Below, in pieces: positions 3,171-6,625 of a stretch of DNA of 6,625 nt. Both the position numbers and the translations under genes were made by a program. The stretch is taken from contig JADFMS010000069.1 of the NCBI GenBank assembly GCA_022563775.1, positions 1 to 6,625 on the forward strand. Reading direction: 5' to 3'. This DNA is from Fidelibacterota bacterium (GTDB taxonomy: Bacteria > Marinisomatota > SORT01). The notes under the pieces were generated by a model. That model was not told the origin of the DNA, did not search any database, and saw only the letters and a program-made list of their open reading frames with translations. The stretch's first letter is position 1, and each line of letters opens with the position of its first letter.

Positions 3171-3617
3171 ATGAGATGTGTCTATTGTGATTCGGCGGAT
3201 ACTAAAGTCGTTGATTCACGGGCGGTTCAAAGCGATAACGCCATCCGGCGCAGACGCGAATGCGAATCGTGTTCAAAGCGCTTTACAACTTATGAATATA
3301 TAGAGAACACTCCCGTAATGGTCGTTAAAAACGACGGCAGGAGGGAGACGTATGCGCGGCAAAAGGTGGAAAAAGCAATACAGATAGCGTGCAATAAACG
3401 TCCGGTGTCTCTCGAACAGATATCTTCCATAATAAATGACGTTGAACTTGAACTCGGCAATCTCGGCAGAAGGGAAGTACCGGTTAAAGTGATAGGCGAA
3501 ACTATCATGAAGAAACTCAAATCTATTGATGAAATCGCTTTTGTCAGATTCGCCAGTGTTTATAAGCAGTACAAGGACACGCAGGAGTTCATCTCCGAAA
3601 TCCACAGGATGAATTGA
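3171..3617 (+). CDS. nrdR: Transcriptional repressor NrdR
   Basis: A nucleotide-sensing repressor of ribonucleotide reductase operons. ATP/dATP binding to its ATP-cone domain controls DNA binding at paired NrdR boxes. At 148 residues it has the normal family length. The N-terminal zinc ribbon uses C3, C6, C31 and C34 (MRCVYC and CESC), with the conserved VVDSR (13-17), basic AIRRRREC (24-31) and RFTTYE (37-42) blocks between and after. The ATP-cone spans about residues 49-139, with VVKNDGRRETYARQKVEKAI in its first third and EIAFVRFASVYKQYKD (121-136) near its end. It follows glyA by 18 bases on the same strand, so it probably shares the rpiB-glyA transcript. No ribonucleotide reductase gene is in the window, and I did not find a clear pair of NrdR boxes. 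A tRNA promoter starts 7 bases after its stop. Confidence 0.96.
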   Translation: MRCVYCDSADTKVVDSRAVQSDNAIRRRRECESCSKRFTTYEYIENTPVMVVKNDGRRETYARQKVEKAIQIACNKRPVSLEQISSIINDVELELGNLGRREVPVKVIGETIMKKLKSIDEIAFVRFASVYKQYKDTQEFISEIHRMN

Positions 3618-3670: not shown

Positions 3671-3743
3671 GGGGCCGTAGCTCAGCTGGGAGAGCGCCTG
3701 AATGGCATTCAGGAGGTCGTCGGTTCGATCCCGATCGGCTCCA
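3671..3743 (+). tRNA. tRNA-Ala (anticodon GGC)
   Basis: A 73-nt cloverleaf folds completely. The acceptor stem GGGGCCG/CGGCTCC contains the G3-U70 wobble pair that marks alanine tRNAs. The D-stem is GCTC/GAGC with an 8-nt loop, and the anticodon stem is CCTGA/TCAGG with loop ATGGCAT and anticodon GGC at 3704-3706. The variable loop has 5 nt, and the T-stem GTCGG/CCGAT closes the loop TTCGATC. The discriminator is A73. CCA is not encoded (CTA follows), so the 3' end must be added by nucleotidyltransferase. It reads GCC and GCU alanine codons. Its 3' half is copied in the two repeats downstream, so it is likely the origin or insertion target of the accessory segment. Confidence 0.97.
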
Positions 3744-3794
3744 CTAACATTACCAATGGTTACAGAGAATTTAATGAATTACAAAATTTAGATA

Positions 3795-3909
3795 CGCCTG
3801 AATGGCATTCAGGAGGTCGTCGGTTCTTCCGTAGGAACTCCTTTGGAGGATCCCGATCGGCTCCACTAATATCCCGTACATAATTAAAATCCGTACATTA
3901 ATGTATATT
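3795..3909 (+). repeat. Left tRNA-Ala-derived direct repeat with interrupted T-loop
   Basis: Bases 3795-3826 equal tRNA bases 3695-3726 (from nucleotide C25 to T-loop C56). Bases 3849-3869 equal tRNA bases 3727-3747 (G57 to just past A73). Between them, 3827-3848 is a 22-nt insert absent from the tRNA. The insert reads as two hairpins: TTCC-GTA-GGAA and CTCC-TTT-GGAG. The tail 3870-3909 is AT-rich, with CCGTACAT twice (3874-3881 and 3891-3898) and the perfect palindrome TACATTAATGTA at 3894-3905. From 3800 to 3909 the copy is identical to 5796-5905. The tRNA 5' half is absent, so this is not a functional tRNA. Confidence 0.95.
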
Positions 3910-3993
3910 AAATTTGTTCATGCTAATATTTTTTTGCCATTAAATTAGTAAATTAAATATGTAATAATTACCGTTTGGATGAAAAGATAAAAT

Positions 3994-5631
3994 ATGGCTA
4001 AAGTAAATCTTGATAAACCTGTATTAAAGGCTGAGATAGAAATAGATAGATACCATTTAACTCATCCGTTTATCAAATTAAAAAAGACTGAAGCATTTTG
4101 GTATCTCTTCTGTGCAGCAGAAGAATCTATGATGATGACAACGATGAACTTCCCAGATGATCTCTACATCGCAGGTAATTATGTTGATAGTATGAAATAT
4201 GTATTAAAGTATTGTATGCAGTGGATAAATCATTCATGTACAACTGGAGGAAAAATTCCGTTAAAAAGTAATCCAAAGTTGAAAACTCTGGCAATCGAAT
4301 TTCTGAACATTGGTTCTGAATATCAGGTATTTGTTGTGCAATATACTTTGGCGTTAAAAGGTATCCTAAAGATGAAAGCTGAAAATTATTCTCTCGATGT
4401 TGATTATCCTCCAAATTATGATCGACGAATCGAGGCATATAATCAATTGCTTTTTCCGGAATTAATAGATGATGCGAAAGATATTACTACTTCAATCAGT
4501 GATTTTAGAACGGCTATCACCAGCAATATCAGGATGGGGGACGGAACCTTTACCTATTCAATCAAGCCAAGGGATGTAATAAAAGCAATAAACTACATAA
4601 AGGAATATTCTGTCCAGGCGTACGAATTACCTCCAGAATGGAAGTTTGCTCGATATTCATTATCCGAGTTCAAGAAAGTTTATGATGGATTGACAGCTTT
4701 GGCACATTATCATTTACTCGCATACAATTATTCAATTGGAAATGCAAGACCGTATGGTGGATTCATAACAAATATTTATAAATTCAAAATGGCAGGGATG
4801 ATTAATAGGCTTTCGAGATATACTGCCGAAATAAATAAGGAAACGATTAAATATATTCTTAACGATTTAACATATGGATCGCATGACTTAATAAATCCAG
4901 ATCCTGCGTTACAACCAATAATTCCATTATCAGGTGAGCAATTCGCAATCATCCCTTCAATATTAATCTCGAATTCACCGGAGAGAAATTTGATATCCTT
5001 ATTGAATAGGATTCCTAAGGAGAGACATATTTATTCAAAAATCAGTAATGAAAAAGAATCTATAATGAGAGATAAAATTAAGAGTGAGTTGAATGATATC
5101 GACTATCGATTTTGGAATGGTAAGATATCTAAAACAGGGGAGCTACCGGACATTGATTTGGCTATTATCTCCGAATCAGAAAAGATTGTTCTTATCTGTG
5201 AATTAAAATGGTTTCTCGATCCGGCTGAGACGAGAGAAATGATCGAAAAAACAGATGAAATAGTTAAAGGCATTGAACAAATTGAGAAACTCAGAAAAAA
5301 TTATGATAGCGTAAAAGATACAATTGATCAAAAATTAAATATAACCTCGGATTACGATTATATGTTTATAGTTATTTCCGAAAATTTTATTGGTCTTTCC
5401 TCGGTACATGTTGAAGAAATACCCGTAATTAATAGATCGCACATAATTCATAAGATTAAGGAAAAACGATCTTTAAAATTTATAATAGAATGGCTTAAAC
5501 AGAGAAATTATCTCCCTACTCCAGACATTCATTTTAAAACGGGTATCAATCATTACAAGGTGGGTAAGTGGAGCATTCCAATTATAAGTTACAAACCTTT
5601 GATTAAAAAAAGTTTAAAGTATCATACATAG
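3994..5631 (+). CDS. Uncharacterised protein with C-terminal PD-(D/E)xK nuclease-like domain
   Basis: A 545-residue protein that I do not recognise as a whole. Its C-terminal third carries the signature of PD-(D/E)xK nucleases: a helix with acidic residues (DKIKSELNDIDYRFW, 360-374), then GELPDIDLAII (382-392) with P385-D386 and D388, then a strand ending in ICELKW (401-406) with E403 and K405. The 17-residue step from D386 to E403 suits the fold. A long charged helix follows (about 410-445), then the hydrophobic strand YMFIVIS (456-462). The N-terminal 340 residues look helical, rich in Tyr, Lys and Ile, without a signal peptide or clear membrane span, so the protein is probably cytoplasmic. 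ATG 3994 is the first in-frame start: an in-frame TAA lies just upstream, and only a weak GAAAAG precedes it. Codon use is far more AT-rich than in the flanking genes. Position between tRNA-derived repeats suggests horizontally acquired cargo, perhaps phage defence or DNA restriction. That role is inference. Confidence 0.85.
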   Translation: MAKVNLDKPVLKAEIEIDRYHLTHPFIKLKKTEAFWYLFCAAEESMMMTTMNFPDDLYIAGNYVDSMKYVLKYCMQWINHSCTTGGKIPLKSNPKLKTLAIEFLNIGSEYQVFVVQYTLALKGILKMKAENYSLDVDYPPNYDRRIEAYNQLLFPELIDDAKDITTSISDFRTAITSNIRMGDGTFTYSIKPRDVIKAINYIKEYSVQAYELPPEWKFARYSLSEFKKVYDGLTALAHYHLLAYNYSIGNARPYGGFITNIYKFKMAGMINRLSRYTAEINKETIKYILNDLTYGSHDLINPDPALQPIIPLSGEQFAIIPSILISNSPERNLISLLNRIPKERHIYSKISNEKESIMRDKIKSELNDIDYRFWNGKISKTGELPDIDLAIISESEKIVLICELKWFLDPAETREMIEKTDEIVKGIEQIEKLRKNYDSVKDTIDQKLNITSDYDYMFIVISENFIGLSSVHVEEIPVINRSHIIHKIKEKRSLKFIIEWLKQRNYLPTPDIHFKTGINHYKVGKWSIPIISYKPLIKKSLKYHT

Positions 5632-5795
5632 TAGTAATGTGAATCTATTCTATTTTTGTAGGCTTGATCATTTAGGTCATCCGTATCAAGATAGTCTACA
5701 ACAATTAAAGTTCAGTATTCTAATGATTTAATAAGTAATATAGTGGCTGTTTCACAAAAGGAGTTTGTAAATATTTGCGAAAATAGGCTTTAATG
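5632..5795. other. Non-coding AT-rich gap after the cargo gene
   Basis: No convincing ORF or RNA gene is present. Apart from the imperfect hairpin at 5656-5701, the only notable stretch is TGGCTGTTTCACAAAA (5744-5759), which vaguely resembles the ends of some insertion sequences but has no partner or transposase. With the right repeat (5796-5905) and the hldD leader (5906-5967), this makes a 336-base stretch without a gene. Confidence 0.6.
5656..5701 (+). other. Imperfect hairpin downstream of the cargo gene
   Basis: TTGTAG (5656-5661) pairs with CTACAA (5696-5701), and inside it CTTGAT (5663-5668) pairs with ATCAAG (5685-5690), with a 16-nt loop and an uneven internal bulge (1 against 5 nt). 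It lies 24 bases after the stop codon. No T-run follows, so it is not a canonical intrinsic terminator. It could stabilise the mRNA 3' end. Confidence 0.4.
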
Positions 5796-5905
5796 GAATG
5801 GCATTCAGGAGGTCGTCGGTTCTTCCGTAGGAACTCCTTTGGAGGATCCCGATCGGCTCCACTAATATCCCGTACATAATTAAAATCCGTACATTAATGT
5901 ATATT
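5796..5905 (+). repeat. Right tRNA-Ala-derived direct repeat with interrupted T-loop
   Basis: This copy is identical over 110 bases to 3800-3909, including the 22-nt T-loop insert (5823-5844), the tRNA 3' end and the tail palindrome (5890-5901). Homology to the tRNA begins five bases later than in the left copy, inside the anticodon stem, at a junction where AATGG is doubled (5792-5796 and 5797-5801). The repeat ends 62 bases before hldD. Confidence 0.95.
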
Positions 5906-5967: not shown

Positions 5968-6625
5968 ATGATCATAGTCACAGGTGGAGCCGGACTTATA
6001 GGAAGCGCTGTCGTTTGGAAATTGAACGGCAGAGGCGTAGATGACATACTGATCGTCGATCACAATCCAAACGGCGATAAGGACGATAATCTCGCAGCGT
6101 TAAAATATTCGCAGTATTTAGATAAATCCGACTTCCTTCAAAAACTTTTTGACGGTCGGCTCAGCGATAGTATAGAATCGATAATTCACCTCGGCGCATG
6201 TACTGATACAACTGAGACTGATAAGGAGTATCTATATCAAAACAATTTCGATTACACCCGCAAACTCGCCTCTTATGCGGTGAATAATAAAATCCGGTTT
6301 ATATATGCTTCAAGCGCTGCGACTTATGGAAACGGCGAGAAGGGTTATGCCGATGATGAGAATCTGATTCCTGCGCTTGAACCGCTCAACGAATATGCTC
6401 GTTCAAAACAAATGTTCGATCTATGGGCAACTGAAAATGGCCTGCCGGACAGGATCGCCGGCCTCAAATACTTCAACATATTCGGTCCGAATGAAGGTCA
6501 TAAGGGAGAGATGAGGAGTATGGTGGCTAAGGCATTCGAGCAGATATGGTCATCCGGTGAAGTCAGACTCTTCAAATCGCACCGTGAGGAATACGAAGAC
6601 GGGGAGCAGCAAAGAGATTTTCTCT
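5968..6625 (+). CDS. hldD: ADP-L-glycero-D-manno-heptose 6-epimerase (3' truncated by window end)
   Basis: The last step of ADP-heptose synthesis for the lipopolysaccharide inner core: a cytoplasmic NADP-dependent epimerase inverting C6 of the heptose. The first 219 residues are present, and the family is usually a little over 300. The Rossmann nucleotide loop TGGAGLIGS (5-13) has G6, G9 and G12. The family-specific HLGACTDTTETD (74-85) and YASSAATYGNG (113-123) are followed by the catalytic Y143-ARS-K147 and by GPNEGHKGEM (173-182), whose K179 matches the second catalytic base of E. coli HldD (K178). The stretch EDGEQQRDFL (210-219) runs into the window edge. These specific blocks separate it from generic UDP-sugar epimerases. 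No strong Shine-Dalgarno site precedes the ATG. Composition returns to that of the core genes. The right repeat ends 62 bases upstream, so the natural promoter may have been displaced or replaced. Confidence 0.93.
   Translation, partial: MIIVTGGAGLIGSAVVWKLNGRGVDDILIVDHNPNGDKDDNLAALKYSQYLDKSDFLQKLFDGRLSDSIESIIHLGACTDTTETDKEYLYQNNFDYTRKLASYAVNNKIRFIYASSAATYGNGEKGYADDENLIPALEPLNEYARSKQMFDLWATENGLPDRIAGLKYFNIFGPNEGHKGEMRSMVAKAFEQIWSSGEVRLFKSHREEYEDGEQQRDFL

Follow-up and report, generated by a model that had tools for sequence, protein, structure and literature searches.

Hairpin-marked tRNA remnants flank a nuclease-type gene and point to a little-noticed kind of gene landing site in bacteria

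The 6,625-nucleotide (nt) contig JADFMS010000069.1 of a Fidelibacterota bacterium, analysed here over its full length (the window), carries an AT-rich open reading frame (ORF) between two identical, altered 3′ halves of a tRNA-Ala gene. In both halves the alteration is a 22-nt insertion that forms two small hairpins in the T loop. We call this insertion the double-hairpin element (DHE), a name chosen for its likeness to mitochondrial double-hairpin elements, and tRNA copies that carry it are called decorated or marked. The genes of the window follow each other in the order TPR lipoprotein, rpiB-like ORF (named by eye), glyA, nrdR, tRNA-Ala(GGC), left tRNA piece, AT-rich ORF, right tRNA piece and ADP-heptose epimerase. 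The features that bear on the following are:

3171..3617, + strand: nrdR, the chromosomal flank on the tRNA side
3671..3744, + strand: intact tRNA-Ala (GGC), called by ARAGORN and by Rfam RF00005 (62.3 bits at 3671-3743)
3745..3794, no strand: spacer of 50 base pairs (bp) from the intact tRNA to the left decorated fragment, read from the sequence
3795..3909, + strand: left decorated fragment, comprising tRNA-Ala from CGCCT and the anticodon arm to the 3′ end, the 22-nt insert and a post-tRNA flank
3827..3848, + strand: DHE in the T loop of the left copy, between TTC and GATC
3994..5631, + strand: AT-rich ORF of 545 amino acids, PD-(D/E)xK nuclease-like, with its fold nearest to Upx
5796..5905, + strand: right decorated fragment, beginning at the anticodon loop (GAATGGC), 110/110 identical to 3800-3909
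5823..5844, + strand: the same DHE in the T loop of the right copy
5968..6625, + strand: ADP-heptose epimerase gene, cut by the window end, the other chromosomal flank

The tRNA-Ala 3′ part is present at both ends of the unit as direct repeats, and an exact repeat of 110 nt is not a chance match. The left copy has five extra tRNA bases, CGCCT, and the right copy begins exactly with GAATGGC at the anticodon loop, a start that lies within the dyad CCTGAATG-G-CATTCAGG. Both copies contain the identical insertion TTCCGTAGGAACTCCTTTGGAG at the same place in the T loop, and once it is removed the left copy has no mismatch to the intact tRNA through the 3′ end. Past the tRNA end the copies share one AT-rich flank. 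Outside the 110 bp any resemblance of the copies is weak: 12 of the first 17 positions match (random local 17-mer pairs: ~0.001), but 336 of 5000 random pairs equalled the gapped 26-nt comparison, and the resemblance was dropped. By eye, the post-tRNA flank (window 3874-3905) holds CCGTACAT twice together with the palindrome TACATTAATGTA, which may be protein-binding arms.

The intact tRNA-Ala sits 50 bp outside the left repeat and is not restored at an element end. The ORF at 3994-5631 is the only one between the copies (no other of at least 110 amino acids was found there), and it has no Pfam match; a recombinase domain was thus not found in the unit among ORFs of at least that length. An initial reading of the letters alone (the sequence-only reading) had described identical altered tRNA-Ala halves at both ends of a unit lacking a recombinase, with the intact tRNA outside, and these descriptions hold.

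We then asked where else the insertion occurs. It consists of two adjacent 4-bp hairpins with 3-nt loops. A 24-mer search (at most two mismatches) matched 7 of 240 genomes of one class, and the reversed pattern matched none; this class is assigned to Bacteroidota solely through the phylum of one locus (L002, Bacteroidetes), and all genome sets used here are samples. One of the matched loci (L018) is a tRNA-Ser remnant with the hairpin between TTC and GAA, and by eye the remaining ones have no tRNA setting. A general pattern of T loop plus hairpin was found in 30 of the 240 genomes (reversed control: 0), a count that includes matches without a double hairpin or a tRNA (e.g. G257, G322) and that the GGTTC in the pattern biases toward T loops. 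The same pattern gave 0/117 in the phylum of genome G001, 10/238 in a draw from the phylum of G002 (7 of the 10 being already among the 30) and 1/6 in the family of G238, namely G238 itself. An exact 27-mer of the hairpin had no match in viral contigs.

Besides the window we read 56 loci, and to these we applied a strict filter that required a T stem with 4 or more pairs, TC ahead of the insertion and GA or AA behind it. Of the resulting 38 rows, two repeat a site on the opposite strand, which makes 36 sites in 20 genomes (genomes counted by hand). They span many tRNA kinds, among them Val, Lys, Glu, Pro, Ser and Met, and frequently have an intact cognate tRNA next to them. In 26 rows the marked copy aligns across the insertion to a tRNA in its own locus. 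Two of these (L076, L081) were set aside as self-alignments, and the 24 kept, which include the window's two, comprise 20 T-loop insertions and 4 elsewhere in the tRNA. In three rows (two from L082, one from L085) the marked copy is the upstream one and the intact tRNA the downstream one.

The marked fragments of the window were also compared with known RNAs. Rfam did not recognize the hairpin, as in the window the tRNA alone passed the gathering threshold. A plain tRNA intron or a functional split tRNA was rejected: the window fragments have no 5′ half, and the window freed of hairpins gives no tRNA call for them. Scripted removal of the hairpins restored a full tRNA at L066, L082, L083 and L085 alone, among 57 sequences.

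An array at L079 (G255:C83, 1419-2160) contains empty and filled sites side by side. It consists of a tRNA-Met and, after it, six copies of the tRNA's 3′ part, of which the final two hold the 22-nt hairpin. The seven T loops are spaced 106, 106, 106, 106, 106 and 128 nt, the distal two being filled and the preceding five empty, and no bases are duplicated at the insertion site. With empty and filled sites adjoining in one array, the DHE is an insertion.

The structure is maintained. In a set of 28 T-loop copies (27 distinct), hand-chosen from the T-loop cases and aligned, 98.6% of the pair cells of the distinct copies are paired. Changes on both sides of a pair numbered 43, compared with 11.3 in shuffles (0/500 as high), and the signal was lost when the partners were slid. 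Of these changes, 29 fall in the T stem, which varies by tRNA kind, and 14, in 3 of the 8 DHE pairs, in the DHE stems. For the whole structure, none of 500 shuffles matched the paired cells, the changed cells or the covariation score; by weaker measures, 5/500 reached the number of changed pairs and 20/500 the number of pair types. As judged from this alignment, the two adjacent hairpins are kept by compensatory changes.

The DHE is also found outside T loops. In 12 genomes picked as pattern-positive, a search for the core without the T-loop letters yielded 63 copies (reversed control: 0), of which 18 are strict T-loop copies and a few are weaker tRNA pieces. The flanks of 27 of the 45 non-strict copies pair over at least 5 bp, which places these copies within the loop of another palindrome. 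A wider set of 111 distinct copies contained 41 in T loops; 30 of the other 70 had pairing flanks, which were present at 312 of 5000 random positions. In both sets the hairpin-loop counts are inflated by repeated copies of one host palindrome. Other tRNA arms are occupied as well: the D arm of a tRNA-Ser (L092), a tRNA-Ser anticodon loop (L175, by eye) and, in tRNA-Pro, the stretch between D and anticodon stems (L082, L083, L085). Near an intact tRNA-Pro, the last three loci, from three genomes, hold tRNA-Pro(GGG) copies that each carry two double hairpins, the first between the D and anticodon stems and the second in the T loop. In one genome, several copies of a CCCCTCTCC...GGAGAGGGG palindrome carry the hairpin inside their loop (L125, L140, L148, L151, L163), a repeat nested in a repeat.

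Our working picture is of a minute element: the DHE would settle in the loops of hairpins and be tolerated by tRNA copies freed from function. It is not private to one cargo-carrying unit, because it also occurs in the loops of other palindromes. The proposal of a mobile unit family, made in the sequence-only reading, is sustained in part: fragments of like make occur elsewhere, but the alteration is a separate small repeat, the double hairpin.

The ORF between the window's copies differs in composition from its surroundings (GC content 0.326, compared with 0.457 in core genes). By its fold, it is a predicted PD-(D/E)xK nuclease whose best fold match is the anti-phage protein Upx. Residues D388, E403 and K405 are invariant across 47 aligned sequences and correspond to the D...ExK catalytic motif in the matching fold; restriction and nicking enzymes match over about residues 352-508. 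The match to Upx (PDB 9wuf) covers a part of that protein, at 11% identity and less than half the length; PDB gave no match to the ORF by sequence or profile, and PADLOC none to the window protein. Nothing convincing was obtained when the ORF was compared with known phage, plasmid, PADLOC, NCBIfam, PHROG or Pfam families; the weak matches were to PHROG (0.19) and to lone weak members CARF_HEPN (0.0059), SduA_C (0.0036) and DUF234 (0.0063). The nearest relatives of the ORF product (P0002-P0004) have 52-65% identity to it. In a viral contig, a relative of 27% identity (L017, 1994-3682) lies between P2-like tail genes, which were named by eye.

The neighbours of marked fragments in other genomes were surveyed by tabulating, for every strict site, the closest ORF to the left and to the right, and by running ten ORFs near marked fragments, picked by eye, against Pfam. 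A GIY-YIG ORF of ~80 amino acids lies between the intact and the marked tRNA at L069 (Glu), L083 (Pro), L091 and L112 (both Ser). At these loci its start lies no more than about 40 nt from the tRNA 3′ end, and in L068 and L092 it is decayed, as judged by eye. Of 119 genomes, 64 carry a match to this family. Among its best 30 loci (L169-L198, in a Bacteroidota class; best matches and not a random draw), 24 have an intact same-strand tRNA no farther than 150 bp away, with the ORF downstream of it in 18 and upstream in 6. Genome G219 has three copies of the ORF at 427-bp spacing. At L179 (G249:C7), two tandem units, each with a tRNA-Pro 5′ half bearing an anticodon-arm hairpin and a GIY-YIG ORF, precede an intact tRNA-Pro (by eye), a mirror-image arrangement with a displaced 5′ half.

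A phage integrase gene (PF00589) is the nearest neighbour on one side at L074, L090 and L095, in L095 beyond the intact tRNA, and a SAM_4 fragment is found near L059. At L113 (4247-4372), a short ORF without Pfam match, resembling an integrase N-terminus by eye, stands beside a marked tRNA-Lys half. Genome G151 has a full-length marked tRNA-Phe preceded by an AbiEi gene and followed by hsdM; on a second contig of this genome, a marked tRNA-Phe half starting at the anticodon loop is alike over ~230 bp and is then followed by an MmeI-type restriction-modification (R-M) gene. AbiEi-family genes are present on both sides of L078. Some marked fragments thus lie near GIY-YIG, integrase and R-M or AbiEi genes. 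The claim that common integrative elements do not explain the arrangement has to be narrowed: they may account for part of the picture, because a few decorated fragments adjoin phage-integrase genes.

With a confidence evenly divided between belief and doubt, we read the locus as an insertion hotspot at tRNA-Ala, where two decorated halves that acted as att-type or homology-type repeats enclose a nuclease gene of defence type. Insertions that duplicate the 3′ part of a tRNA would leave non-functional tRNA halves near the intact gene, and such insertions could stem from the crossover of a tyrosine integrase or from repair that a nuclease triggers at the anticodon or T loop. The small element, with its preference for the loops of hairpins, would settle afterwards in the T loop of these halves. 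The nuclease gene would then have entered at a decorated half, at CGCCT^GAATGGC, as a unit [GAATGGC...3′ half, flank, gene, ...TAATG], and an entry of this kind would therefore leave a half at each end. Since no recombinase was found in the unit, movement would take place in trans or through homologous recombination between decorated halves; candidate movers are a trans-acting integrase, recombination between marked halves and nuclease-driven duplication. The layout would fit the arithmetic of anticodon-loop integration or of repair after a tRNA cut, and the mechanism of movement is our inference from it.

Several results weigh against this reading of the locus as a hotspot. The unit shows no integrase and leaves the intact tRNA outside, unlike a standard island, and neither a recombinase nor a cleavage site is demonstrated for the window. 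Profile searches for a cargo homologue, run without a positive control, gave 0/240 and 0/335 genomes (the sets overlap in part), and in the same genomes no relative of the cargo was found in a decorated array elsewhere. In other genomes, most marked fragments that we read enclose no evident cargo. The integrase, GIY-YIG and defence neighbours, with ten eye-picked ORFs compared with Pfam, are parallels and not an enrichment.

Possible, although on the doubtful side, is that the decorated tRNA-Ala pseudo-halves were multiplied by local duplication and that an unrelated AT-rich gene later entered the spacer, the repeats being irrelevant to its arrival. Tandem units, decorated and undecorated, without evident cargo exist at L079 (seven T loops at 106/128 nt), at L094 and L062 (two units) and at L059 (several), and the window copies share a post-tRNA flank as tandem units do. 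However, the right copy begins at the anticodon loop after unrelated sequence, unlike the units of a clean tandem array, and one genome has decorated tRNA-Phe pieces on two contigs, with a different R-M gene after each.

We consider it unlikely that the locus is a homing element, in which the nuclease, itself the mobility enzyme, cuts the tRNA gene as the GIY-YIG enzymes beside tRNAs would, repair copies the gene together with a tRNA half, and the hairpin marks or protects this half by splitting the target. The phage GIY-YIG enzyme SegB provides a precedent: the excerpted text of its description (PMC13096335) reports that cleavage peaks fall inside tRNA genes, that 23 of 83 sites carry the motif RAWTSGAAC, and that the enzyme drives segmental amplification, with tandem amplification of tRNA and nuclease gene. 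By our own comparison this motif spans the T-loop TTC and GAA at the hairpin site. A hairpin there would, as an idea drawn from the letters, break a SegB-type site. The GIY-YIG ORFs, which at L069, L083, L091 and L112 fill the slot between intact and decorated tRNA and in 24 of their 30 best loci have a tRNA close by, would fit such an element, and PD-(D/E)xK homing enzymes exist (PMC6083498, in excerpt). In contrast, the cargo fold fits a defence protein and restriction enzymes, and no homing enzyme stood out; the one other context observed is a slot among P2-like tail genes; and the tRNA-Ala T loop differs from the SegB motif by one mismatch (by eye).

A metagenome misassembly through the 110-bp repeat, which would make either cargo and rfaD or nrdR-tRNA and cargo false neighbours, is quite improbable. 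In its favour, assemblers are prone to error at identical 110-bp copies, the protein has been seen on two contigs, of which this 6,625-bp one is the longest, and in 8 distant relatives the glyA locus lacks a tRNA within 1.5 kb and so offers no check of the neighbourhood. Against it, the left copy is 50 bp from its parent tRNA, the flanks of each copy differ and every junction is with unique sequence. Close relatives of the host were not found, the best SHMT identity being 68% among 198 genomes of the phylum and 69% among 245 of the class, and a scan of genome contigs with the TPR lipoprotein gave 5 distant TPR matches from other groups. The host may lie outside the sampled Bacteroidota class, because its best SHMT match reaches only 69%.

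The hotspot reading can be extended to a wider proposal, which we put forward tentatively and regard as rather doubtful. In Bacteroidota and their neighbours, there would be landing sites at which the DHE splits a nuclease site in the T loop, so that the halves become immune to re-cutting and serve as ends for recombinase-free nuclease or anti-phage cassettes. More generally, hairpin-marked tRNA remnants in distant bacteria point to a little-noticed kind of gene landing site. If marked halves are ends or protected scars, defence genes that move in the absence of a recombinase can be searched for by this signature, and the accumulation of tRNA 3′ ends close to intact tRNA genes in these bacteria becomes easier to explain. 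On a more modest reading, a 22-nt double hairpin in hairpin loops, with empty and filled sites in one array, makes mobility directly testable in bacteria. The finding joins tRNA insertion hotspots, tRNA-cutting homing nucleases, anti-phage cargo and minute mobile hairpins, which are usually studied apart. Among the matches listed in the literature on GIY-YIG enzymes at bacterial tRNAs, tRNA-derived palindromic repeats and bacterial double-hairpin repeats, the present arrangement is undescribed.

Of the known systems, the tRNA islands of tyrosine recombinases share with the window an intact tRNA, a displaced 3′ part at the far end, a boundary at the anticodon loop and AT-rich cargo, and elsewhere PF00589 integrases adjoin a few decorated fragments. 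In contrast to such islands, an integrase was not found in the unit, the altered half stands at both ends, the intact tRNA is outside and a hairpin splits the T loop. Free-standing GIY-YIG enzymes at tRNAs, such as SegB as far as the excerpt describes it, share a small nuclease at tRNA genes, tandem amplification of tRNA pieces and a T-loop-like motif. The window nuclease differs in being a 545-amino-acid PD-(D/E)xK protein of a bacterial chromosome, known here from its sequence. Double hairpins are described, in the excerpt of PMC2267715, for two bacterial stem-loop families, EFA-1 and Pae-1. Hairpin-forming mitochondrial elements, namely the DHE of Allomyces, the RHE of sponges and the GC clusters of yeast (PMC4478555, PMC2800124, both in excerpt), have in common with our element very short adjacent hairpins, dispersed copies, conserved stems and a non-coding nature. 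Our element lies in a bacterial chromosome, in the loops of other hairpins and in the T, D and anticodon arms of tRNAs, and its likeness to the mitochondrial elements, as these excerpts portray them, is one of form only.

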